IMG/VR virus record: IMGVR_UViG_3300022934_000106
Location: 1 to 29,755 of that record
DNA: 29,755 bases
Strand: one strand, 5' to 3'
DNA from: a virus
This document shows positions 8,500 to 29,706 of this stretch, piece after piece. The notes under the pieces are model-generated. The model was given only the letters and a program-made list of their open reading frames with translations. It made no database searches and had not been told where the DNA came from. How positions within the stretch are numbered: position 1 is the first letter of the stretch; each line of letters begins with the position of its first letter. Made by a program: the position numbers and the translations under genes.

Positions 8500-8842
8500 G
8501 TTTGAAAGATTAGCGCATCATATAGATGCTGCTTTAGCATATTCGGGTGGCACACATAGTTCGCTAGATGTGTTAGACGCTATAAAGCAAGGAAAAGCGC
8601 AGTTTTTCCCATTGGAAAATTCTGTTATAGTGACGGAAATAGTTGACTACCCGAAAAGAGCCGTTTGTCGCATTTGGCTGGCTGGCGGTGAGATGGATGA
8701 GTTGATAGAGGCTGAGAAAGAACTGGTGAAGTGGGCTAGAAACCACGGATGCAGCGGAATGGAAATCATCGGGCGCAAAGGCTGGGAACGGCAGTTAAAA
8801 GACTACAGCGCGGCGTCAACTGTACTAATAAAGGAAATATGA
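8492..8842 (+). CDS. GNAT-fold-like small phage protein (internal virion protein A type)
   Basis: A protein of about 116 residues with an acetyltransferase-like layout: DEFERLAHHIDAALAYSGG, then VIVTEIVDYPKRAVCRIWLAG, then a helix and GCSGMEIIGRKGWERQLKDY. The RKGWERxL ending is typical of a phage family with GNAT fold found beside internal virion proteins, as with T7 gp13-type proteins. No activity can be claimed. The start is uncertain. TTG at 8492 gives the family-like N-terminus and an 8-base overlap; ATG at 8450 would overlap the preceding gene by 50 bases. Neither has a good SD. Confidence 0.68.
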   Translation: MDEFERLAHHIDAALAYSGGTHSSLDVLDAIKQGKAQFFPLENSVIVTEIVDYPKRAVCRIWLAGGEMDELIEAEKELVKWARNHGCSGMEIIGRKGWERQLKDYSAASTVLIKEI

Positions 8843-8843
8843 G

Positions 8844-9599
8844 ATGAGTTTAGGCAAAGGCGGTGGCAACACAAGACAGATACAGTCAAGCACTGTAGAA
8901 CCCCCTGCGTTTCAAAAGCCATTTATTGAGTATGGCTTGTCTCAAGCTAAACAGCTTTATGAATCAGAAACACCTCAGTATTACCCCGGTAGTACAGTTG
9001 TAGGTTACTCTCCAGAATCTGAAATGGCTCTGCAAGGTATGCGTCAAAGAGCCATATCTGGTAGCCCATTCATTCAAGGCGTACAAGATGTCGTAATGCA
9101 GAACCTTATGGGTACAAACCCACTGCAATCAGCAGCATTTAAACCAGTTGTTGATCAAGTTGCGGCACAGTTCGCCAGTGCTGGTCGTTACGGATCAGGC
9201 GCACAGCAAGGGGCTTTAGCATCCGCTTTAGCGCCTATGGCATTGGAAGCACAACAGAGGGCTATCGCACAGGCACCAGCGGCGCGCCAGTTTGGGTTTG
9301 CTGATCTTGAGACGCTTGCACAGGTTGGTGCGGCTCGTGAAGCCCAACAGGGAGCGGAACTTGCGGCAGATATTGAACGGTTCCAGTTTGAGCAAGCACG
9401 GCCACAAGAGAAGTTGGCGCAGTATCTTGCCGCTACACGCGGTGGTGATTTGGGTCAGACGACTTACGAAGCACAACAACGTCAGCCACTCACAAGCATC
9501 CTTGGCGCTGGTTTAGCTGGTGCAGAACTAGGCCAGATGGCTGGTATTGGCGGCGGCACAGGCGCTCTTATCGGCGCTGGTTTAGGCTTGCTAGGTTAG
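8844..9599 (+). CDS. Internal/ejection-type virion protein with C-terminal Gly-rich hydrophobic segment
   Basis: A 251-residue protein with an N-terminal Gly stretch (SLGKGGGNTR), a middle rich in Ala and Gln (SAGRYGSGAQQGALASALAP, then long Ala/Gln/Glu helices) and a strongly hydrophobic Gly/Ala-rich C-terminus (GAGLAGAELGQMAGIGGGTG and GALIGAGLGLLG). Such a tail is common in phage proteins delivered with the DNA that insert in the host envelope. The ATG at 8844 follows the previous stop by one base. It is the first of three consecutive ejection-like genes. The function is inferred from composition and position. Confidence 0.75.
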   Translation: MSLGKGGGNTRQIQSSTVEPPAFQKPFIEYGLSQAKQLYESETPQYYPGSTVVGYSPESEMALQGMRQRAISGSPFIQGVQDVVMQNLMGTNPLQSAAFKPVVDQVAAQFASAGRYGSGAQQGALASALAPMALEAQQRAIAQAPAARQFGFADLETLAQVGAAREAQQGAELAADIERFQFEQARPQEKLAQYLAATRGGDLGQTTYEAQQRQPLTSILGAGLAGAELGQMAGIGGGTGALIGAGLGLLG

Positions 9600-9608
9600 G
9601 AGAGTTAG

Positions 9609-11240
9609 ATGGCTGATAATCCGTTTCTGAGAGGTATGACAGGCCAGCAGATGGGTGTTACCCGTAGGCCGCTTACTGACTTCTTTGGTCAGCAGCAACA
9701 GTCCACTATGGCACTGCCCGTCAGACGCCCAGTTGCCCCACAGCGCCTCTCAGCGCAATCTACACAGCCTTTAGACATTGCTGGGCTACGCAGACAGGTG
9801 CTGGCTCAGTCAGCCGCTCCTACAGCGCCACAATCGCGTCAGGCATTGATGGCTAAGTACGGCTTGGCACCGACTGCCCCTGCTCAAAGACCATCACCTA
9901 TGCAACGCTTGTCAGCGGCATTACCAGCGGCTGGTACGCCTCAAATGGCTGGGTTAGGCGCTGCTGGTCGCACTATGCTGGAACTGAGTGGTTATCAGCC
10001 AGCGGCGACTGCACCATCATTGGGTCAGATACTGGCACGGTCAGCAGAGGCTGGCATCGGTGCTATGGAGAAGAAGCAAGCGGCAGAACAAGCTGCGGCA
10101 GAAAAGAAAGCGGCGGCAGAACGTCAGGCGCGTCTTGATGAGTTAGACCGTAGAAACATTGAATCACAAATAGCGGCTAGAGAAAAAGAAGAAAAAACAG
10201 GAAAGCCATTAAACTTTAAATCAACAACGGTTATAGATCCAGAGACTGGTCAAAGAGGAAAAGCTGATGTTGCTTTCTTGCCTCTTGGTAGTCCTTTAAT
10301 AGAGGCTCTGGGTGGAGATCCCACTACTGGAAGGGTTGTTCGTAAAGGTAGTTTTGTGCCTGATAAGCCTTCTTCAGAAAACAATATAAGAACAGTTACT
10401 GGTGTTGGTGTAGTAGATTTTTCAGACCGTGAAAACCCAAAAGTTCTTATGGAATCTGAAGACCCTAGAAGATTTACTAATTTAGGGCCGTATAGAAAAG
10501 GCGGAAAGTCTATCGGAGAAGGCACTCTTGATAGACACACAGGTGAAAGATTTATAGAAAAAGCTGATGGAACTCGTATACCTATACCTGATGACGCTAT
10601 ACCTGTTACTGAGGGTATGGCAGCTATGGGCATACCTAATTTCGGTCAATTCAAAAAGATAAGAGAAGAACTTAACGCAGACGAAGTAAGTATGCGTAAT
10701 TACGCCAGCTATCTTAAAAACATTGAGAACGCAGATTCTGGTATTGGAAGACTGGCAGATGACTTTAGTGCTTACATAAAAACATTCCTTTCAACAAACG
10801 CAAAAGAGTTAAAGTTATCTGAAGAAGAACTCGCATTAAGGATTGCTCAAGGTCAGATGCAGGGTCTTCTTGGATCAGCAAGGATAGAAACTGTGGGTGG
10901 TGGTGTAATGACAGAGCAAGATGCTTTGCGTGTCATTCAAAACATAGGCGGTAATGTAGACGCATTGCAAAGCAAACAAGTAGTGAAAGGGCAAATAACA
11001 AGAATGTTTGCTCAGAAGTACAACAAATACGAAAAGAACATTAATGACTACAATAATGCAGTTGAAAATCTTTACTCTGACAGAGGTTACGACAGAAAGT
11101 CACCAATAGAGGTTGATGCAAGATTGTTTGACCCTAAAATTATGGCTGAAATGGGATTGGAAAGTATGGTTGACACAGAGGATTCTGACACAGAAACCTC
11201 AGACGCTCTTAGCGAAGCATTAGGGCAGTATGGAAACTAA
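9609..11240 (+). CDS. Large internal/ejection-type virion protein
   Basis: A 543-residue protein with SD AGGAG before the ATG. The first 140 residues are Gln/Pro/Ala-rich and likely disordered. Residues about 145-200 form an Ala/Glu/Lys coiled coil (MEKKQAAEQAAAEKKAAAER). The rest alternates predicted beta (TTVIDPETGQRGKADVAFL) with helical segments (NYASYLKNIENADSGIGRLA). Base composition changes near 10150: upstream is richer in G and C codon endings, downstream is A/T-rich, hinting at a chimeric gene. No enzymatic motif was seen. The next gene overlaps or abuts its stop. Confidence 0.75.
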   Translation: MADNPFLRGMTGQQMGVTRRPLTDFFGQQQQSTMALPVRRPVAPQRLSAQSTQPLDIAGLRRQVLAQSAAPTAPQSRQALMAKYGLAPTAPAQRPSPMQRLSAALPAAGTPQMAGLGAAGRTMLELSGYQPAATAPSLGQILARSAEAGIGAMEKKQAAEQAAAEKKAAAERQARLDELDRRNIESQIAAREKEEKTGKPLNFKSTTVIDPETGQRGKADVAFLPLGSPLIEALGGDPTTGRVVRKGSFVPDKPSSENNIRTVTGVGVVDFSDRENPKVLMESEDPRRFTNLGPYRKGGKSIGEGTLDRHTGERFIEKADGTRIPIPDDAIPVTEGMAAMGIPNFGQFKKIREELNADEVSMRNYASYLKNIENADSGIGRLADDFSAYIKTFLSTNAKELKLSEEELALRIAQGQMQGLLGSARIETVGGGVMTEQDALRVIQNIGGNVDALQSKQVVKGQITRMFAQKYNKYEKNINDYNNAVENLYSDRGYDRKSPIEVDARLFDPKIMAEMGLESMVDTEDSDTETSDALSEALGQYGN

Positions 11241-20228: not shown

Positions 20229-20391
20229 TCATGTTGCTTTTGTCACGCATTTTTTGTGTCAGCATCAACAGTATCTCCGTTGACAGCTTCATCATTTCAT
20301 CCTTGTCCATTGTCACCCGATAGACCTCATCATCCGTTTGGACAATGAGGCCATCAGTTACAACAGTGATCTTAAAAGGGGATGTCGTCAT
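20203..20391 (-). CDS. Small protein downstream of SSB, unknown
   Basis: A 62-residue protein starting at the ATG inside the end of ssb (20-base overlap). Residues 5-30 are beta-like (FKITVVTDGLIVQTDDEVYR) and the rest is a Met/Lys-rich helix (DKDEMMKLSTEILLMLTQKM). It is in the middle of the recombination operon. No family is recognised. An in-frame ATG nine codons upstream would overlap ssb further and is less likely. Confidence 0.6.
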   Translation of the reverse strand: MTTSPFKITVVTDGLIVQTDDEVYRVTMDKDEMMKLSTEILLMLTQKMRDKSNMNGSGNVAG

Positions 20392-20728
20392 TGATGGGTT
20401 CATTAGACTTGCCACCATCAGATTCCCTTGGGTTAGAAAAATCTATCTCTTGAACGCGCACATCAAGAGCGGTTTTATCTTCACCGTCTTTGTTTGTGTA
20501 TGAACGCTGAGACAGATTGCCGATTACTGTAGCTGAAGTTCCTTTCTTCAGATACTCAGCAATCTTTTCACCTCTGACGCCCCATACAGAGCAGTCAACC
20601 CATATGGTGCTTTTATTGTTACCGTAGCCAGTATCTGATGCCAAAGAAAAAGATGTAACCGTTGTCTCGTTTACAGTCTTTGTCTCCGCATCTCTTCCTA
20701 GCCTACCAACGAATGTGCAGACATTCAT
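20372..20728 (-). CDS. ssb: Single-stranded DNA-binding protein
   Basis: A 118-residue SSB. The OB-fold pattern is clear: MNVCTFVGRLGRDAETKTV, TSFSLASDTGYGNNKSTIWV, WGVRGEKIAEYLKKGTSATV and GNLSQRSYTNKDGEDKTALD, ending with the acidic interaction tail DDIPF that docks partner proteins. It coats single strands during phage replication and recombination. It is coupled by ATGA to the annealing protein gene upstream, with an AGGAG SD. Slightly shorter than bacterial SSBs, normal for phage. Confidence 0.93.
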   Translation of the reverse strand: MNVCTFVGRLGRDAETKTVNETTVTSFSLASDTGYGNNKSTIWVDCSVWGVRGEKIAEYLKKGTSATVIGNLSQRSYTNKDGEDKTALDVRVQEIDFSNPRESDGGKSNEPINDDIPF

Positions 20729-21417
20729 CCTGCCAACTCCTTTTTACGATTAGTGAATAGATGATTGTAGTCTTTCGCCTTCGGGCCTAGTCGCGTGTAA
20801 ATTTTCTTCAGCGAATCTAAGTCCGGGGCTATCGCAATCTCCTGATCAACAGTTAATGGAGACGCAATCTTGTTGGGCATTTGTACCCCACCGCCGCTAG
20901 AGGTATTCTCATCACAAGTTTCGGAAGTGTTTGACGATGGGGTACGCCCCGTTGCTGGCTTGCGTGAGAGGCTGCTCCCACCACCAGCGTCAGACGTTGC
21001 TGGCAAATCCTCGCCAGCGTAAATGTAGCAACCAAGACCCAGCAATGCGATTGCCTTGACCATACAGCGTTGCAAGGCGGTGTTCACCTCAAAGCTGTTA
21101 GGGTTCTTGATTGGACGATTAGCGTGGTTCAGTACAGGCATAATCTCTGTAGCTGATTCCAGAGCCGACACACTACTAGCATCACCCTCTGGCATAATCT
21201 TGACCGTGACAGTCACATAAGCAAAGCCATCGGCATCCAGCATGTATGGCATTTGGTTGCCATTGATCTGGAACAGATGCTTAGTCACCTGTGCAGTAGG
21301 ATAGTTCTGCTTGAGAATAGTCCAAGCCCACGCCCACGACAGGTAGGTAAAGCCATTCTTTTTTTCAACATGCTTTGAGCAATCAATCTTGCTCAGTGTT
21401 TCCCATACATTACTCAT
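20725..21417 (-). CDS. DUF1071/Sak-type single-strand annealing protein
   Basis: A 230-residue recombinase of the Rad52-like annealing group. The N-terminal core has FTYLSWAWAWTILKQNYPTA followed by QVTKHLFQ, VTVTVKIMPEG, then EVNTALQRCMVKAIALLGLG and YIYAGEDLP, all hallmarks of DUF1071. After residue 140 comes a Ser/Gly/Thr linker with GGGSSLSRKPATG, then a short helical C-terminal domain (LDSLKKIYTRLGPKAKDY). With the neighbouring exonuclease and SSB it forms a Red-like pair for end-resection and annealing. The ATG at 21417 has GGAG six bases before it; ATGA coupling links it to the gene upstream. Confidence 0.88.
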   Translation of the reverse strand: MSNVWETLSKIDCSKHVEKKNGFTYLSWAWAWTILKQNYPTAQVTKHLFQINGNQMPYMLDADGFAYVTVTVKIMPEGDASSVSALESATEIMPVLNHANRPIKNPNSFEVNTALQRCMVKAIALLGLGCYIYAGEDLPATSDAGGGSSLSRKPATGRTPSSNTSETCDENTSSGGGVQMPNKIASPLTVDQEIAIAPDLDSLKKIYTRLGPKAKDYNHLFTNRKKELAG

Positions 21418-21599
21418 TTGACACTCCAATCTACGCCACGGCGTGTAGTAAAGCAGAAATAGTTATCAGGATTTTGCTTGAACGTAGCCATAGTCATTGC
21501 AACGTGACAGTCAGAGATAGTGTCAAACGTACCAATGACATCCACATTTGCAGTCTCAAAGCCAGTCAGAGTGACCATTATCAATAGATATTTAGACAT
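21414..21599 (-). CDS. Small protein between exonuclease and annealing protein
   Basis: A 61-residue protein. It begins MSKYLLIMVTLTGFETANV and has a compact beta/alpha look (IGTFDTISDCHVAMTMATFK, then YFCFTTRRGVDWSVK). The start lies eight bases before the exonuclease stop with AAAGGAG upstream, and the end is coupled to the annealing gene by ATGA. Coupling on both sides makes translation very likely. Its place suggests a partner of the recombination pair, but no family is recognised. Confidence 0.65.
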   Translation of the reverse strand: MSKYLLIMVTLTGFETANVDVIGTFDTISDCHVAMTMATFKQNPDNYFCFTTRRGVDWSVK

Positions 21600-22422
21600 T
21601 GCTCCACAACTCCTTTGCATCATTTACAAACTGATGCCCCCAATAGAATGGATGATTGAAATCTGGCTCCATCAAACCAGCCAGCACCTTTGGATCGGTG
21701 CTTACTGCCAACAGGTTTTGCCGCGTAATAGCCTTACGCCGGATTTCCTCTATGGCAAAATTAAGAACGTCATCTGACATTTTGTCGCAGTTATCTGGAT
21801 TGTAGATAACGCCATCATCAGAAGACACATATGCAATGTTAGGTGTGGCACCTGTAGCCTTCCAGTACACGGCGGCTTGCAACACATGCTCCCACGCTGG
21901 TTCCTTTGGCAGTGACGCCTTAGTCCAGCCTCTGGTGCCGTCTTTCTTAACCGCACCCTGCCGGGGTGCCTTAGTCTTGATTTCGGCAAGCTGACCGTCC
22001 TTGAACAAATCGACATACCCCATAACAGGCACCAGCACACCGTCCAATGTCAGTTCGATTTTGCGCTCTTCTTGAGCGCCAGCGAACACGGGAGATAGTA
22101 GGTCGATGCCGACAGTGGCGGCGGCTGGTATCAGTTCACGAAACTTGTCACGCTTATCTTGTGAGAAGTTTGCAGGGTGAAAGTCATAACCTGTCATAGC
22201 CTCTTCAACAGCCTCATCAATGTCCTGACCGTGGCATGTAACAGCCTGTATGACTGTATGCACGGCAGTACCGAAAGCTGCGTTCTCGCCAACGACTATC
22301 TCGCGGCGTTTCTCTTTTGACAGGTAAACATATTCAAACATCCAGTTCGCCAATGGGCGATTTAACTGGCTTGGTGAGAAATGGTAGACACCTACCGATT
22401 TCATTTTTTCTAATAAGTCCAT
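21592..22422 (-). CDS. RecB-like PD-(D/E)XK exonuclease
   Basis: A 276-residue nuclease of the Cas4/RecB type. Visible motifs in order are GTAVH (51-55), MGYVDLF (134-140, catalytic Asp138), EIKTK (147-151, catalytic E and K) and Q182-x3-Y186 (LQAAVYW), the RecB-family signature. It probably resects DNA ends so the annealing protein two genes downstream can act. It is the first gene of the - strand operon. The ATG at 22422 with AAGGAG six bases upstream is preferred over TTG at 22428. No Fe-S cluster cysteine set is evident. Confidence 0.9.
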   Translation of the reverse strand: MDLLEKMKSVGVYHFSPSQLNRPLANWMFEYVYLSKEKRREIVVGENAAFGTAVHTVIQAVTCHGQDIDEAVEEAMTGYDFHPANFSQDKRDKFRELIPAAATVGIDLLSPVFAGAQEERKIELTLDGVLVPVMGYVDLFKDGQLAEIKTKAPRQGAVKKDGTRGWTKASLPKEPAWEHVLQAAVYWKATGATPNIAYVSSDDGVIYNPDNCDKMSDDVLNFAIEEIRRKAITRQNLLAVSTDPKVLAGLMEPDFNHPFYWGHQFVNDAKELWSNV

Positions 22423-22457
22423 TCCCAACTCCTTGGCCGTATTGGCTTGATAACCCT

Positions 22458-22738: not shown

Positions 22739-22961
22739 GAAGCCACCATTCATTCACAAGAATCAGTACATGAAGACTATTGACCACGCGACTGAGTTTG
22801 AAAAGTTGCGGTTGCTGAATATGGGTTGCCCGGACTTTGAAGATGACCCGGCGGCATCAGGTGATGCTGACAAGCACGGCAAGTATCAAAGGCGTTCACT
22901 AGCTGATGGTCAGCTATTGGGCGGCGTTGATATGGGTAACTACCGGGGGAATGGTGAGTGA
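22731..22961 (+). CDS. Small hydrophilic protein, unknown
   Basis: A 76-residue protein starting at ATG 22731 with GGAG nearby, overlapping the HTH gene end by eight bases. The sequence is polar, with FKKPPFIHKNQYMKTIDHAT, then CPDFEDDPAASGDADKHGKY and GGVDMGNYRGNGE. One cysteine and no membrane segment. No family is recognised. It is coupled to the methyltransferase through a GTGA overlap. It probably belongs to the DNA-metabolism operon. Confidence 0.6.
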   Translation: MFKKPPFIHKNQYMKTIDHATEFEKLRLLNMGCPDFEDDPAASGDADKHGKYQRRSLADGQLLGGVDMGNYRGNGE

Positions 22962-23467
22962 GGCAGAAAGACGATTTTTATCCTACGCCGCCAGAAGCTG
23001 TTGAAGCGTTGTTGCAACTTGAGACATTTGACGGTGGTATATGGGAGCCAGCTTGCGGTGATGGTGCTATCAGTAAAATCCTTGCAACGGAGTATGATGT
23101 TGTGAGCAGTGACCTAAATGATTATGGATTTGGTCAGACTGGCATTGATTTTTTAATGGAACAAAAACTACAAGCACCCAATATTGTCACGAACCCACCG
23201 TATAAGAACGCAACTGATTTTGTGCGACATGCAATCATGCTTGGCGCAAAGAAACATTGTTGGTTTTTACGTCTGGCTTTTTTAGAGGGTCAGGCTCGTT
23301 ACGAAAATCTTTACAGTAAACTAAGGCCAGCTAGGGTGTGGGTGTTCAGTAAACGTCTGACATTGTGGCGCGGTGATGAGGAGCGGTCAGGTAATGGCAC
23401 AACCGCTTATGCTTGGTTTGTCTGGGATGGTGTGCCGGATGAAACAAAACTGGGGTGGGTACTATGA
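22958..23467 (+). CDS. DNA N6-adenine methyltransferase-like protein
   Basis: A 169-residue SAM-dependent methyltransferase. An N-terminal DDFYPTPPEAVEALL line is followed by the SAM site WEPACGDGAISK (29-40) and the catalytic NPPY (79-82, in VTNPPYKNA). The C-terminus has the conserved RVWVFSKRLTLWRGDEE and AYAWFVWD strands. The DPPY-class motif implies N6-adenine (or N4-cytosine) methylation. The protein is short with no separate target-recognition domain, as in several phage enzymes with relaxed specificity. GTG start overlapping the preceding stop. The next gene is coupled by ATGA. Confidence 0.85.
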   Translation: MRQKDDFYPTPPEAVEALLQLETFDGGIWEPACGDGAISKILATEYDVVSSDLNDYGFGQTGIDFLMEQKLQAPNIVTNPPYKNATDFVRHAIMLGAKKHCWFLRLAFLEGQARYENLYSKLRPARVWVFSKRLTLWRGDEERSGNGTTAYAWFVWDGVPDETKLGWVL

Positions 23468-23850
23468 CAAACGGACGCCGAAAGGGAGCCAATTTTGAAC
23501 GCGAACTGGCTCGTATGTGTATGGACGAACTTGGTATTGACGGTGTGAAAAGAGACATTGAGCAATACAGGGCGGCAGAACACGGTGACTTGGTAGGCAT
23601 TGACGGCTGGACTGTCGAGGCCAAGCGTTACGCTCACGGCATCATTCACAAGCCGGAATGGTGGCAACAGGTGGAAACCGCTGCTGACGCATCCGGCACT
23701 GAGCCTGTGTTGATCTACAAATATGACCGCCAGCCGATTCGCTGTGTCGTGCGTCTTTCCAGCATCAACGCTGATTTTGCTGGCAAGGATGACCTTGCAA
23801 CGATTAGCTTTGAAACGTGGTGCATGTTGGTCAGGGAAAGCTGGGCATGA
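23464..23850 (+). CDS. Hjc-like PD-(D/E)XK Holliday-junction resolvase/endonuclease
   Basis: A 128-residue nuclease. It shows RRKGANFERELARM (Glu12), AAEHGDLVGIDGWTVEAKRY (Asp42, Glu52-x-Lys54) and a helix with HKPEWWQQVETAADASG, followed by VLIYKYDRQP. This matches Hjc/phage resolvase-type PD-(D/E)XK enzymes that cut branched DNA. In the phage it would resolve recombination intermediates before packaging. The ATG overlaps the methyltransferase stop and the gene couples to the next nuclease-like gene (ATGA both sides). Specific resolvase activity is an inference. Confidence 0.8.
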   Translation: MTNGRRKGANFERELARMCMDELGIDGVKRDIEQYRAAEHGDLVGIDGWTVEAKRYAHGIIHKPEWWQQVETAADASGTEPVLIYKYDRQPIRCVVRLSSINADFAGKDDLATISFETWCMLVRESWA

Positions 23851-25368: not shown

Positions 25369-25396
25369 GGAAGGGGTGGCTTATGCCACCCCTTCC
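25369..25396. terminator. Bidirectional hairpin between convergent operons
   Basis: A perfect 12-bp stem GGAAGGGGTGGC (25369-25380) / GCCACCCCTTCC (25385-25396) with loop TTAT. It begins one base after the + strand stop. The - strand cytosine methyltransferase stop codon (25381-25383) lies in the loop, so its last four codons are in the stem. Neither side has a long T tract, so termination may be incomplete. Confidence 0.75.
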
Positions 25397-26415
25397 ATAT
25401 GCTTTAAGATGTGGCAGATGACATCGACCGTCCAGCCGTTACCAAGCATTTTATAGCGTTGTGTCTTGCTAACGTGGTTGGTGTAGTTATCCGGCACGGT
25501 TTGCAGTCTCTCGCACTCAACAGGCGTCAGTGACCGCCAAGTGGCACCATTATCAAATGTTAGATGGTTATTGTTTTGCCAAGATGATGAGGTCATCGAT
25601 GGTGTTTTACCGTCACTTGCTTTTAATCCGCCAGAATTAAAACCGTGTGCAGTCTGCAATATCTTTGGCTCAAGATTGCCACCACTCGCCGCGCATAGGC
25701 TGGGTGCCTTGCCGTCTGGGTGATAAACGCAGCGCACATAGCTATGACCTTTGAGATCAGCGTCACCGACATGACACAGACCATCATCACTGAACACTAG
25801 CTGGCGTTTGTTCTTTTCAAAATAATCTTTGAGCCGACCGCCTTTGTAGTAGGTTGATGTCACGCATAGCGATTTGTCGCGGTCAACAAAGCCATCCTCT
25901 AAGATATCTTTCAGCTTGATGCCTTTATCGGCTGGCATCATCAAGAACGGTATATTCGTCCAATACAGGCGATAACGGTTCTGAGCCGATACAAGATTAC
26001 TATTGATGGCGATTGGCTGAACGCCTAGCGCCTCACTGATAACGTCTTGGCTTTGCTTTTTCATGCGTACATTCTCAAGCAGGAAATAGCGCGGCTTGGC
26101 CTCTTTTAAGATTCGCACAAATTCCCAGAACAAGCGCGACCGGGGGTCATCGAAGTTTAACTGATTGCCAGCAAAGCTGAATCCTTGGCAGGGTGAGCCG
26201 CCAAGCAATAGGTCAATCTTCTCACCCTCGAATGTCTCAGGCCAGATAACGTCACGCACATCACCCAGATGGATAGTGTCAGGGTAATTTGCTGCGGCAA
26301 CTTTGATTGCGTATTTGTCTATTTCAGACGCGAAATAACGGTCAATCTTATAGCCGCACCGCTCAAGAGCGATGCGACCACAAGACATGCCATCGAATAA
26401 TGACAATACATTCAT
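25381..26415 (-). CDS. DNA C5-cytosine methyltransferase
   Basis: A 344-residue enzyme with the full motif set: SAM site LSLFDGMSCGRIAL (motif I), catalytic Pro-Cys at GGSPCQGFSFAG (72-83, Cys76), LLENV (motif VI), QNRYRLYW (145-152, motif VIII), RSLTPVECERLQ (294-305, motif IX) and GNGWTVDV (325-332, motif X). It transfers a methyl to cytosine C5. The target sequence is set by the stretch between VIII and IX and cannot be read here. No partner restriction enzyme is adjacent, so protection of phage DNA is likely. It starts two bases after the upstream small gene stop. Its 3' end lies in the convergent hairpin. Confidence 0.94.
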   Translation of the reverse strand: MNVLSLFDGMSCGRIALERCGYKIDRYFASEIDKYAIKVAAANYPDTIHLGDVRDVIWPETFEGEKIDLLLGGSPCQGFSFAGNQLNFDDPRSRLFWEFVRILKEAKPRYFLLENVRMKKQSQDVISEALGVQPIAINSNLVSAQNRYRLYWTNIPFLMMPADKGIKLKDILEDGFVDRDKSLCVTSTYYKGGRLKDYFEKNKRQLVFSDDGLCHVGDADLKGHSYVRCVYHPDGKAPSLCAASGGNLEPKILQTAHGFNSGGLKASDGKTPSMTSSSWQNNNHLTFDNGATWRSLTPVECERLQTVPDNYTNHVSKTQRYKMLGNGWTVDVICHILKHMEGVA

Positions 26416-27344: not shown

Positions 27345-27503
27345 TCATTGTTTCAAAATGAAGCTGGCAACCACACTGGCCGCAAACGCACCAAACAAGG
27401 CCAGCAATCCGGTGGTGCTAGTGTTATGTGTTGCGGCTAGGATAAAGGCCAGCACAACCGAAAGTGTCCCGGTTGCGCTAGCTAGTTTTTCGCGGCGATT
27501 CAT
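27345..27503 (-). CDS. 52-residue two-TM membrane protein
   Basis: A short gene coupled by ATGA to the gene upstream. The product has a charged start (MNRREKLAS) followed by two hydrophobic helices (TGTLSVVLAFILAATHNTS and GLLALFGAFAASVVASFIL) and a Lys-Gln end. It has a hairpin topology and is small enough to be a holin-like, toxin-like or superinfection-type membrane peptide. The codon style matches the neighbours and the frame fills an otherwise empty gap of 200 bases. No family recognised. Confidence 0.65.
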   Translation of the reverse strand: MNRREKLASATGTLSVVLAFILAATHNTSTTGLLALFGAFAASVVASFILKQ

Positions 27504-27931
27504 GATGCCATTTCCCGATCATTTATTGCGTTGATCAATTCAGATAACGCTTCATTGACAAATTGCCCGGAAACTTCCCAACGATCAACGCCGCCATCTA
27601 AATTGATGCCGGGACATTCACCGATCATTTTTCCGCCATTATCTAAATTTACCGCATCGATGTTGCGGTCTTTCAGCAATGTTGAGAGATAGTAGCGGCT
27701 AACAAATTGGCCGTATTCTTCTGCAAGATATGATTCGGTTTTGTTATCAGATTGCCGCATCTGCTTTGCGGCCATTGAATCCATATCGTAAAACTCAATC
27801 AATGGATCAGTTTTATTTTCATCATATGTGAGGCAATGGTTTAGACCATATAAACCGCCGGGCATTACTGCCCGGACGCACCACTTGATGCCAGATTCAC
27901 GATCAATCGCTTTATATGTAATACTGCTCAT
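27500..27931 (-). CDS. Unknown protein of the cassette block
   Basis: A 143-residue soluble protein with mixed structure. It starts SSITYKAIDRESGIKWCVRA, continues VMPGGLYGLNHCLTYDENKT, has a middle helix (YLAEEYGQFVSRYYLSTLL) and ends in a segment with DRWEVSGQFVNEALSELINA. Start codon ATG with ACAAGGG seven bases upstream. Its leader is the most diverged of three related intergenic modules. No catalytic motif is seen. A membrane peptide gene is coupled to its stop. Confidence 0.65.
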   Translation of the reverse strand: MSSITYKAIDRESGIKWCVRAVMPGGLYGLNHCLTYDENKTDPLIEFYDMDSMAAKQMRQSDNKTESYLAEEYGQFVSRYYLSTLLKDRNIDAVNLDNGGKMIGECPGINLDGGVDRWEVSGQFVNEALSELINAINDREMAS

Positions 27932-28044
27932 AATTTCACCCTTGTTTTGTTTACGCTATCGGCTTTCACCGTGTAACTGCTAAATAATCGCCTAGCATTT
28001 ACAAGGTGGCACCCTTGCCGGGTGCCGCCAATGTTATGCGGTTT
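27932..28044 (-). repeat. Intergenic cassette module, copy 3 (diverged)
   Basis: 113 bases between two - strand genes. It has the same plan as the modules at 28564-28667 and 29055-29156: GGCAC-type hairpin after the upstream stop, a spacer, an AAAGCCGATAGCG stretch, then AACAAAACAAGGG before the next ATG. It is less similar than the other two copies, with the clearest identity in the hairpin and the last 30 bases. Confidence 0.6.
28005..28029 (-). terminator. Hairpin after small gene (cassette hairpin A)
   Basis: A 10-bp stem GGTGGCACCC (28005-28014) / GGGTGCCGCC (28020-28029) with one G-T pair and a 5-base loop, 15 bases after the upstream gene stop on the - strand. TTGTAAAT follows, so it is a weak terminator or an mRNA 3' stabiliser. 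Confidence 0.55.
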
Positions 28045-28320
28045 TTAATAGTCCAACCCTTTACGCTTGCATTCTTCGACAACCGCCAAGCAATCATTGC
28101 CAATGGCTATCAATTCGGCATTGTTGAAGCTATCAAACGCCGGGTTTAAGTTATCGGCATCTATTGCACCAATGCCCGGTTGATATTCCCATTTTAGCGG
28201 TATATCAGCGCCACGCGCCGTCAATGCCTCGCATATGTCAAAAGCTAGGTTAATAGCCGCGCCGAATGGATCATGTTGGCCGTCATTTTCAATGATAAGG
28301 TTTTTTGCGTTTTCATTCAT
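28045..28320 (-). CDS. Unknown acidic protein of the cassette block
   Basis: A 91-residue acidic protein. Start at ATG 28320 with AAAGGG eight bases before it; an upstream GTG is ignored. Sequence marks are MNENAKNLIIENDGQHDPFG, a helix AAINLAFDICEALTARGADI and a C-terminal helix with NNAELIAIGNDCLAVVEECK. It contains three cysteines. I recognise the general look of small accessory proteins of alphaproteobacterial mobile elements but no function. It starts only 15 bases after the preceding stop, so the two form a pair within the array. Confidence 0.62.
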   Translation of the reverse strand: MNENAKNLIIENDGQHDPFGAAINLAFDICEALTARGADIPLKWEYQPGIGAIDADNLNPAFDSFNNAELIAIGNDCLAVVEECKRKGLDY

Positions 28321-28335
28321 TTTTTGCACCCTTTC

Positions 28336-28563
28336 CTATATGTTGAGCGTAGCGGCAAAATCTGGCGCGGTTGTCATGTCTATTTCAGCAATTCGCCAGT
28401 CTGTTATGTCGAACAATTCGCCGCGCTCTATGCGGTTTTTGAATGTTTCTATGACCGTTTCGGCTTGCTGGCGGCTAGTGATATATTCACCGTTTACCGT
28501 TTCACAAATAAGAGATTCGCCGCTATCGCCGCCATAAATGCCCCATATGATATAGTTTTTCAT
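28336..28563 (-). CDS. Small protein of the cassette block, unknown
   Basis: A 75-residue protein starting MKNYIIWGIYGGDSGESLIC; the ATG at 28563 has ACAAGGG ten bases upstream and the longer frame upstream of it is leader sequence. A segment ICETVNGEYITSRQQAETVI and a helix ETFKNRIERG suggest a small mixed fold. No family function known. It follows intergenic module copy 2. Confidence 0.63.
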   Translation of the reverse strand: MKNYIIWGIYGGDSGESLICETVNGEYITSRQQAETVIETFKNRIERGELFDITDWRIAEIDMTTAPDFAATLNI

Positions 28564-28667
28564 TGGTTTATTTCCCTTGTGTTGTTGCGTTGTTGGCTTG
28601 CGCCATATAGACGCCAGCCGGATTGACTGGCGGCTATAAAGCGGCACGGTTGCCCGTGCCAGCCGGT
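28564..28667 (-). repeat. Intergenic cassette module, copy 2
   Basis: 104 bases, clearly related to 29055-29156 read on the - strand. Shared blocks in order are ACCGGCTGGCAC, GTGCCGC, TATAG, CAA-CC-GGC, TAT-GGCG-A-AGCC, AACG-AACAAC, CAAGGGAA and AAAC-AATG. It contains two hairpins (28643-28660 and 28612-28632). Confidence 0.72.
28643..28660 (-). terminator. Hairpin after small gene (cassette hairpin B)
   Basis: A 7-bp stem GGCACGG (28643-28649) / CCGTGCC (28654-28660). On the - strand the loop is GCAA, a GNRA-type tetraloop. It lies seven bases after the upstream gene stop and is followed by GCTTTATAG, a short T run only. Confidence 0.55.
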
Positions 28668-29054
28668 TTATGCGTGTGATTCGTGAATGTAAAACTTGCG
28701 GCACCCGGTCAACATTTTACCGATTGCAAGCGCCGCCTCTCTCATAGCGGTATCACCAACGCCAGCTATAGATTGCGACAGTTTGATGCCAGCGTGGTCT
28801 ATAGCATCTGCCATAGCCGCGCTTGCTTTGTCGTAGCCATAGCCGCCAGCCTTGCCGTAGCCGCTACCGTATAGGTCACGACTGCCAAGCCACGAAATAC
28901 AATGTATAGTCTGCCCGGTGCAGTAAAAGCGGAAACGCGCAACCGCGCCGCGCTCTGAATGAATGACCGCAATTTCTTTATAAAACTTGTCTGCGATTTT
29001 ATCGCGCTTGGTACCAATGTTCCGGTGTCCTAGGTTTTTGTTTGTAGCTTTCAT
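28668..29054 (-). CDS. Conserved-looking accessory protein, Gly/Tyr-rich, unknown
   Basis: A 128-residue protein starting at ATG 29054 with CCAAGGG ten bases upstream; the longer frame upstream is leader. A basic start (ATNKNLGHRNIGTKRDKIAD) is followed by EIAVIHSERGAVARFRFYCT, HCISWLGSRDLYGSGYGKAG with a GYGYD turn, and a helical region (SAAMADAIDHAGIKLSQSIA). I recall similar proteins on alphaproteobacterial plasmids and prophages, without a known role. Three cysteines. Module copies flank it on both sides, so it looks like a movable cassette. Confidence 0.68.
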   Translation of the reverse strand: MKATNKNLGHRNIGTKRDKIADKFYKEIAVIHSERGAVARFRFYCTGQTIHCISWLGSRDLYGSGYGKAGGYGYDKASAAMADAIDHAGIKLSQSIAGVGDTAMREAALAIGKMLTGCRKFYIHESHA

Positions 29055-29156
29055 TGTTTCGATTCCCTTGGTTGTTACGTTTTCGGCTATTCGCCGCATA
29101 GGTTGCCGGGGTTGCCAGCAATCTATGAGGCGGCACCCCGAAAGGTGCCAGCCGTT
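29055..29156 (-). repeat. Intergenic cassette module, copy 1
   Basis: 102 bases related to copies 2 and 3. Two hairpins: GGCACC/GGTGCC (29132-29137 and 29144-29149) and TTGCCGG/CCAGCAA (29103-29109 and 29115-29121, one G-T pair). It ends in AACAACCAAGGGAA before the ATG at 29054. Confidence 0.72.
29132..29149 (-). terminator. Hairpin after small gene (cassette hairpin C)
   Basis: A 6-bp stem with a six-base loop that contains TTCG on the - strand, seven bases after the upstream gene stop. There is no T tract, so a 3' stabiliser or leaky terminator is as likely as a true terminator. Confidence 0.5.
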
Positions 29157-29393
29157 TTATTGCGCCCGGTTTAATACAAAATCCGGGACTAAATCCTGAT
29201 GTAATCCGATTCTGTTAGCGGCTAAAATCGCCTCTTTTGCCGCCCATTTTGCATTTGTTATACAATGTTTTCTTGCATATTCATTCTTAGCCCGGATTGC
29301 CTCATAAAGCGAGGTCTCATATTCTGCGGCGCGTTGGATGTAATAGGCGTATTCAGCGATAGGCCGTGATTTTTCTTTTGATAGTTTTGCCAT
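29157..29393 (-). CDS. Small helical protein, first gene of the cassette array
   Basis: A 78-residue, mostly helical protein: MAKLSKEKSRPIAEYAYYIQ, then a charged-aromatic helix (RAAEYETSLYEAIRAKNEYA), HCITNAKWAAKEAILAANRI and a short end (QDLVPDFVLNRAQ). The ATG at 29393 has ACAAGGG eight bases upstream; an upstream in-frame extension crosses the promoter and is rejected. It is the first gene transcribed from the promoter at 29453-29480. No family recognised. Confidence 0.65.
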   Translation of the reverse strand: MAKLSKEKSRPIAEYAYYIQRAAEYETSLYEAIRAKNEYARKHCITNAKWAAKEAILAANRIGLHQDLVPDFVLNRAQ

Positions 29394-29480: not shown

Positions 29481-29499
29481 CTAATCGCGTTTTTTTGGT

Positions 29500-29523
29500 G
29501 GGGGTGGGGTATAGGGGGTAGGG
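29500..29523 (+). other. G-quadruplex-type G tract
   Basis: Four G runs (5, 4, 5 and 3 G at 29500-29504, 29506-29509, 29514-29518 and 29521-29523) are separated by loops of 1, 4 and 2 bases, fitting the standard quadruplex pattern. It lies about 20 bases upstream of the array promoter, in the template strand for that promoter. Confidence 0.65.
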
Positions 29524-29629
29524 CATCATGCGGTAACAAAATACCACAACGCGCACGCGAAGCCACACAAGGCCACTGGCTGGCTTTGGGTGCCGCCGGG
29601 TAGGTAGGCAAGGCCGCTAGTCGTTGCAA

Positions 29630-29652: not shown

Positions 29653-29659
29653 GATTTAC

Positions 29660-29696
29660 TTTGTCGCATAATATAAATTATTTTTTGTCGCATAAT
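29660..29696. repeat. Two 13-base direct repeats
   Basis: TTTGTCGCATAAT occurs at 29660-29672 and 29684-29696, 24 bases apart from start to start, with ATAAATTATTT-type AT-rich DNA between. A partial third copy (TTTGTCG) begins at 29698. Iteron-like in form. Confidence 0.65.
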
Positions 29697-29706
29697 GTTT
29701 GTCGTG

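Follow-up and report, generated by a model that had tools for sequence, protein, structure and literature searches.

The + strand of the window (the whole stretch of DNA analysed, a virus record of 29,755 bases) has genes for portal, scaffold, major head and tail proteins. At the right end, small genes form a leftward operon, which contains the three gaps that bear the module described here. The gene content and layout suggest that this operon is early. The first gene of the array (29157..29393, - strand, about 78 aa, family c66) is located upstream of module copy 1, and its open reading frame extends to 29480 with a TTG start. The first array slot is held by 79-100 aa relatives of the c66 gene in four other contigs (L010, L022, L062 and L070). 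Next to it is a 128-aa gene of unknown function (28668..29054, - strand, phrog_7028), which is flanked by a module on either side. Downstream of copy 2 lies a 75-aa gene, also of unknown function (28336..28563, - strand), followed by a 94-aa acidic gene of family c96 (28045..28329, - strand) upstream of copy 3 and a 143-aa gene of family c65 (27500..27931, - strand) downstream of it. No similarity links the genes between the modules, as the original prediction had held.

Elsewhere in the window, a Sak-like single-strand annealing protein (20725-21429, - strand) is encoded next to SSB (20372-20728, - strand), and a RusA-like resolvase is encoded at 23455-23850 (+ strand). The protein encoded at 21592-22428 (- strand) matches phrog_1706, annotated as 'CRISPR/Cas system associated' (E 1e-8), and is possibly a phage Cas4-like nuclease. 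Two DNA methyltransferases of different families (22958-23467, + strand; 25381-26415, - strand) are present in this small phage. A G-run tract (ggtgggggtggggtatagggggtaggg, 29497-29525) and two copies of a direct repeat, TTTGTCGCATAAT (29658-29705), separate the array from the divergent side; TTTGTCGCATAAT also occurs in contig L005. These two segments are a candidate promoter/operator region.

In the order of the mRNA, a three-way junction of about 70 nt (70-75 nt) comes first, then a linker rich in A, then the ribosome-binding site and start codon of the next gene. The closing helix P1 pairs GGCU with AGCC. P2 is a 7-bp arm with a short loop, and P3 is a long arm in which two 1x1 mismatches separate successive stretches of 3, 5 and about 7 bp. 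P1 and P2 abut, as do P2 and P3, with 0 nt between them, and the joint from P3 to P1 (J31) has 3-4 nt (GAA, GAAU or GCA). Copy 1 (29082..29155, - strand) starts 2 nt past the stop codon of gene 29157-29393; it has P1, a 7-bp P2 with a UUCG loop and a P3 of 3 bp/1x1/5 bp/1x1/7 bp, and its linker (29055..29081, - strand) is AACGTAACAACCAAGGGAATCGAAACA, with the ribosome-binding site AAGGGA inside. Copy 2 (28592..28666, - strand) starts 2 nt past the stop of gene 28668-29054 and forms the same junction with GCAA as the P2 loop; its linker (28564..28591, - strand), AACGCAACAACACAAGGGAAATAAACCA, also contains AAGGGA. Copy 3 (27958..28031, - strand) is of a divergent subtype and lies 14 nt past the stop of gene 28045-28329, with a linker (27932..27957, - strand) of AGCGTAAACAAAACAAGGGTGAAATT that contains AAGGG. 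The fold z-scores of copies 1, 2 and 3, computed against dinucleotide shuffles, are -3.8, -5.2 and -3.5.

The original prediction aligned the gaps 29055-29156 and 28564-28667 over their full length, and our alignment bears this out. It credited the gap 27932-28044 with only a hairpin and the last 30 bases, which understates the likeness, since copy 3 is a three-way junction with the complete architecture of the other two. Its two hairpins are real and correspond to the arms P2 and P3, but the third helix that closes them, P1, went unrecognised: the block it called the CGGCTGGCAC hairpin is the 5' strand of P1 together with P2, and its AGCC block is the 3' strand of P1.

A DNA pattern made from the copies led to 54 IMG/VR contigs, and relatives of the window's rep protein, picked independently of module presence, led to others. 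The matches were sorted first with a custom structure scanner and then with R1, a covariance model made from 35 distinct copies. The separation by R1 is clean, with real matches at 45-87 bits and the best of the remainder at 27 bits. Beyond the three in the window, 49 further copies are present in 43 IMG/VR viral contigs, each contig counted once, and, as anticipated, they mostly lie between differing small genes. Sequence counts are not event counts here because many contigs are close relatives, and the copies come from metagenome contigs chosen in part by sequence pattern. The contigs of 28-36 kb that were scanned whole hold 1-2 copies each, compared with three in the window, and no module was found in them beyond the first part of the operon. 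A looser pattern for the 3' half added two contigs that the model did not recognise, evidently by chance.

The copies fall into two groups of uncultured phages with distinct terminase large subunits, which match PHROGs 5902 and 2472 best and share 22% identity (E 2e-4). A second covariance model, R2, was built from 15 modules of group 2 only, the group other than that of the window, which avoids circularity. Its top three matches in the 29.8 kb of the window are copies 1, 2 and 3 (59.7, 59.6 and 31.4 bits; E 2.4e-15, 2.7e-15 and 4.4e-7), and the next, at 12.1 bits, is the antisense of a module. R2 recovers the remaining group-1 copies as well. Since a model from the other phage group finds the window copies, and since the copies covary, a chance likeness of the gaps is ruled out. 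The two checks by which the original prediction was to stand or fall thus came out in its favour: the likeness exceeds that of shuffled gaps, and other genomes carry copies.

Rfam 15 gave 0 matches at the gathering threshold in the window, where the best sub-threshold match to the region (17.9 bits) is on the opposite strand, and none of its families matched the module in 13 further loci. Named phages and plasmids gave no blastn match to the module; the plasmid search that had been proposed for it matched nothing in the plasmid collection. Phage C72C1 (OQ984150), the nearest named phage by capsid, has no module. In C72C1 (positions 8530-9731), the annotation splits the major head gene into two halves, and the three small opposite-strand ORFs that lie in the middle give the impression of an insert of about 470 bp. 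Among the loci listed by a pattern scan of cellular genome contigs, the model scored the 80 that were tested at 27 bits or less. In 385 genomes of one bacterial class, three matches reached 29-31 bits and none folds as a junction. No credible copy came from the cellular genomes that were sampled.

At about 70 nt, the module is a structured RNA and is conserved as such. In a model-fitted alignment of 39 distinct copies, the fold has 27 pairs and 96.7% of the paired cells are standard. Two-sided changes occupy 173 cells, compared with 57.7 in shuffles, and are seen at 16 of the 27 pairs. The covariation score of this alignment is 0.477, compared with 0.164 when shuffled and at most 0.118 with slid partners, and an unfitted MAFFT alignment gives 0.458. 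G-T cells outnumber A-C cells by 61 to 8, and therefore the folded strand is the mRNA strand. The junction is the minimum-energy fold in 36 of 38 unique copies, every one with z < -3, and 22 of 35 P2 loops are tetraloops of the GNRA (17) or UUCG (5) kind. The covariation is carried by P2 and P3. P1 rests mainly on folding and invariant G-C pairs; two of its five pairs never vary and the outer pair fails in 11 of 38 copies, which makes P1 the weakest part of the structural claim. Because the covariation is strong and includes G-U pairs, selection acts on an RNA. The module therefore works in the transcript, and homology for recombination cannot be the whole story. Primary sequence is also conserved in P1, P2 and P3a (GGCU-GGCA ... 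UGCCGC ... GGCGAA.AGCC), and P3 holds a nearly constant U-C/U-U mismatch. The conservation of sequence in P1, P2 and P3a exceeds what a plain stability hairpin would need and hints at a specific binding partner.

The placement of the module is as regular as its fold. It sits on the strand of its flanking genes in every copy. In both groups it lies near the beginning of the operon that runs away from the terminase genes, 0.5-2.2 kb from the divergent terminase-side gene. Nearly all copies start 1-6 nt past a stop codon (13-14 nt in three), and the next ATG follows the module by 19-35 nt. The linker is A-rich (AACGCAACAA...) and ends in the Shine-Dalgarno (SD) sequence. Group 1 has AAGGGA here, and most of group 2 has GGAGGGTT. 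The neighbours belong to 16 upstream and 14 downstream families, four of which occur on both sides, and are mostly without any known domain. The original prediction proposed a 3' stabiliser combined with a translation leader. The anatomy is consistent with this proposal, as the module abuts the upstream stop and is followed by a CAA/A-rich linker and the SD; the module leaves the predicted accessibility of the SD unchanged, with values of 0.62 in the native sequence, 0.61 without the module and 0.56 with a shuffled module. A riboswitch that sequesters the SD was rejected on the same figures. An intrinsic terminator was also rejected, as a scan found no terminator-like site at the modules and the sequence that follows them is an A-rich linker, not a T tract. 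A relation to phi29 pRNA, which would be suggested by a junction near packaging genes, was dropped as well, because the module occurs in several copies among unrelated genes and is not tied to packaging.

Genes are gained, lost and replaced at the edges of the module, as related contigs show. The window and L029 share the c96-c65 gene pair, with proteins 86% and 97% identical. The two genes have a module between them in the window, but are nearly contiguous without one in L029. Hence, the module is not essential for a given gene. Contig L022 has the order 79-aa gene, module, 98-aa gene; at the same place, L070 and L062 have the 79-aa gene, a module, a 253-aa or 255-aa gene, respectively, a second module and the 98-aa gene. 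The 79-aa proteins of L070 and L022 are 96% identical, and the 253-aa and 255-aa proteins, which both touch phrog_2554, are at best remote homologues. A GP88-like protein (PF17338) alternates with a 253-256 aa phrog_2554 protein in the same part of the array (L062, L019, L050 and L009 compared with L070, L014, L029 and L010). Cassettes also cross the phage groups. In L045, a terminase 99% identical to those of group 1 precedes a gene, a module and a second gene that as a segment are about 95% identical to group 2. In L002, a group-2 terminase and a group-2 first gene are followed by a module and then by a relative of the window's 128-aa gene (91% identical), which here adjoins a terminase of the other group.

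Cassette exchange at modules is thus observed. The original prediction further held that the modules supply the homology for swapping, and as stated this is not supported: copies in the same genome are only 47-57% identical and share exact runs of 5-14 nt. Because of this divergence, the module is poor homology for shuffling inside one genome, and any help from it as homology would be limited to corresponding slots in different phages. Recent tandem duplication is an unlikely origin, as same-genome copies are no more alike than copies across phages. The subtype of a module tracks its upstream gene just slightly more closely than its downstream gene (0.726 vs 0.697 in group 1; 0.887 vs 0.855 in group 2). 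Some modules are 95-99% identical although both flanking gene families differ (L060/L067, L061/L067, L035/L069 and L027/L006). Between phages, the Sak-like annealing protein and the RusA-like resolvase would be a plausible route for exchange by analogy, since Rad52-like phage recombinases act on short, diverged homology, and such relaxed recombination produces phage mosaics (PMC3945230).

We tentatively favour, at somewhat less than even odds, the explanation that the module is an intercistronic element for mRNA processing, stability and expression that insulates one gene from the next. A polycistronic RNA would be made, and the module would fold into a compact three-way junction right behind the stop codon. 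Cleavage in or beside the module would then separate the cistrons; RNase III could cut the long P3 arm, or an enzyme of the RNase E type could cut the CAA/A-rich linker, which is unpaired. This would leave the upstream message with a stable 3' end and start the downstream message with an A-rich leader free of structure, together with a strong SD. Ribosomes coming off the upstream gene would also be kept by the module from reinitiating. Because each gene would be insulated from its neighbour in this way, a new gene could be inserted or replaced at the edge of a module and still be expressed, which would explain the persistence of modules where genes swap. The Sak-like annealing protein could use the matching modules of co-infecting phages as short homology. 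The fit of the module between stop and SD is a weak argument for a processing element because the tight spacing may simply reflect genome compactness.

Two other functions in the transcript come next after processing and insulation, and we consider each of them unlikely. The module could be a cis-acting RNA antiterminator like HK022 put, such that the nascent RNA binds host RNA polymerase and allows read-through of downstream terminators or pauses. Like putRNA, it is structured, phage-encoded, about 70 nt long and close to the start of an operon (PMC9378689). The distance between the divergent terminase-side gene and the first module is 0.5-1.7 kb in every case (measured from the gene, not from a transcript start), the contigs scanned whole have none elsewhere, the module is indifferent to its flanking genes, and the conserved sequence at the junction would suit such a role. 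However, put consists of two adjacent stem-loops without a third closing helix, several phages carry 2-3 consecutive copies, which antitermination does not need, and the copies reach about 2 kb into the operon. With about the same low probability, the junction could be a regulatory leader that, on binding a small molecule or a protein of the phage or host, switches the translation or decay of the next gene; the unrelated small genes would then form one post-transcriptional regulon. The strong conservation of P1, P2, P3a, the 3-4 nt of J31 and the mismatch in P3 would be expected of a binding site, the module precedes 14 different downstream families, and marine cyanophages are known to have structured leaders, the manA and wcaG motifs (PMC2864571). 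Against a leader, no pairing with the SD or start is predicted, the downstream genes have no recognisable common function, the module is missing at the otherwise matching junction of L029, and Rfam has no match.

We regard the two remaining explanations as improbable. The module might be kept mainly as a recombination boundary, that is, as short homology for the exchange of small genes, with a structure that is incidental or acts in single-stranded DNA. Near-identical modules between different families, the cassettes of L045 and L002, the annealing protein and resolvase in the window, and the mosaics attributed to relaxed Rad52-like recombination (PMC3945230) all agree with it, but the compensatory changes, the G-T excess on the mRNA strand and the RNA tetraloops indicate selection on RNA, and the short runs shared by same-genome copies offer little homology. 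Slightly less probable still is that the module, once excised from the mRNA, acts in trans, either as a small RNA or as a decoy for a host factor. The fold is compact, stable and self-contained and is independent of the flanking genes, yet the loop sequences are not conserved, so that no conserved seed region is visible, and copies in the same genome are only about 50% identical.

An mRNA processing and insulation element remains our first choice. A bolder reading, which we hold to be possible though doubtful, is that the module represents a new class of portable three-way-junction RNA that works with a specific partner and both marks and controls fast-exchanging accessory genes at the start of the operon. 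The partner might be a ligand, host RNA polymerase, or a protein of the ribosome or the phage, and the module would be gained and lost between genes and would cross phage groups together with the genes that it separates. Archaeal viruses offer a precedent, as genes for early host takeover or anti-defence were found there through a shared regulatory sequence (PMC11065993). Since the module sits at the seams of a fast-exchanging array of small genes next to the terminase, the covariance model could likewise be used as bait, with the neighbours of modules as candidates for such genes. The module gives a handle on the expression and swapping of small early phage genes, and it makes a general question testable, namely whether the borders of phage mosaics carry parts that keep inserted genes expressible. 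Phage biology also gains a strongly covarying structured RNA, one that Rfam 15 lacks and that the search of named phages did not find.

Several known systems share features with the module. In phage T7, the sister sites of R1.1 are structured RNAs of about 60-70 nt between small early genes. R1.1 itself, an RNase III site, is 60 nt of structured RNA located between early genes 1.0 and 1.1 (PMC6121014), and it is the precedent for the processing element that we favour. Like the module, the T7 sites are intercistronic and near the start of an operon of small genes. They are single irregular hairpins with an internal loop, whereas the module is a three-way junction (36 of 38 copies) with conserved sequence. 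Cleavage by RNase III belongs to the T7 sites; for the module it is proposed by analogy, with no sequence relation shown.

The SAS and ESAS repeats of Cluster K mycobacteriophages precede many unrelated non-structural genes, half of them with inverted repeats, and their function is unknown (PMC3203893). The module is likewise a repeated element ahead of many unrelated phage genes. However, SAS consists of 13 bp at translation starts and ESAS of two 17-bp repeats, whereas the module is a covarying RNA junction that ends 19-35 nt before the start. The SAS-like 13-mer GGGATAGGAGCCC was not found in the linkers of the module, which contain AAGGGA or GGAGGGTT. HK022 putRNA is encoded in cis in the early transcript of the phage, has about 70 nt and forms two stem-loops (PMC9378689). 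It is similar in length to the module (70-75 nt), but its adjacent stem-loops have no closing helix, whereas P1 closes P2 and P3. Put also occurs as one site per early operon in a lambdoid phage, compared with up to three copies of the module. PutRNA binds the zinc-binding domain of the RNA polymerase beta' subunit and suppresses termination, an activity that is only putative for the module.

The manA and wcaG motifs are, like the module, structured RNAs mostly from marine metagenomes and phages (PMC2864571). Unlike the module, they precede metabolic genes, and no Rfam model matches the module. Integron cassettes are small genes that each have a folded attC element directly past the stop codon. 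The module resembles attC in this placement after the stop codon. A cassette integrase did not come to notice. It differs from attC in having no GTTRRRY core evident by inspection and in that its folded strand is the mRNA strand, with G-U pairs.
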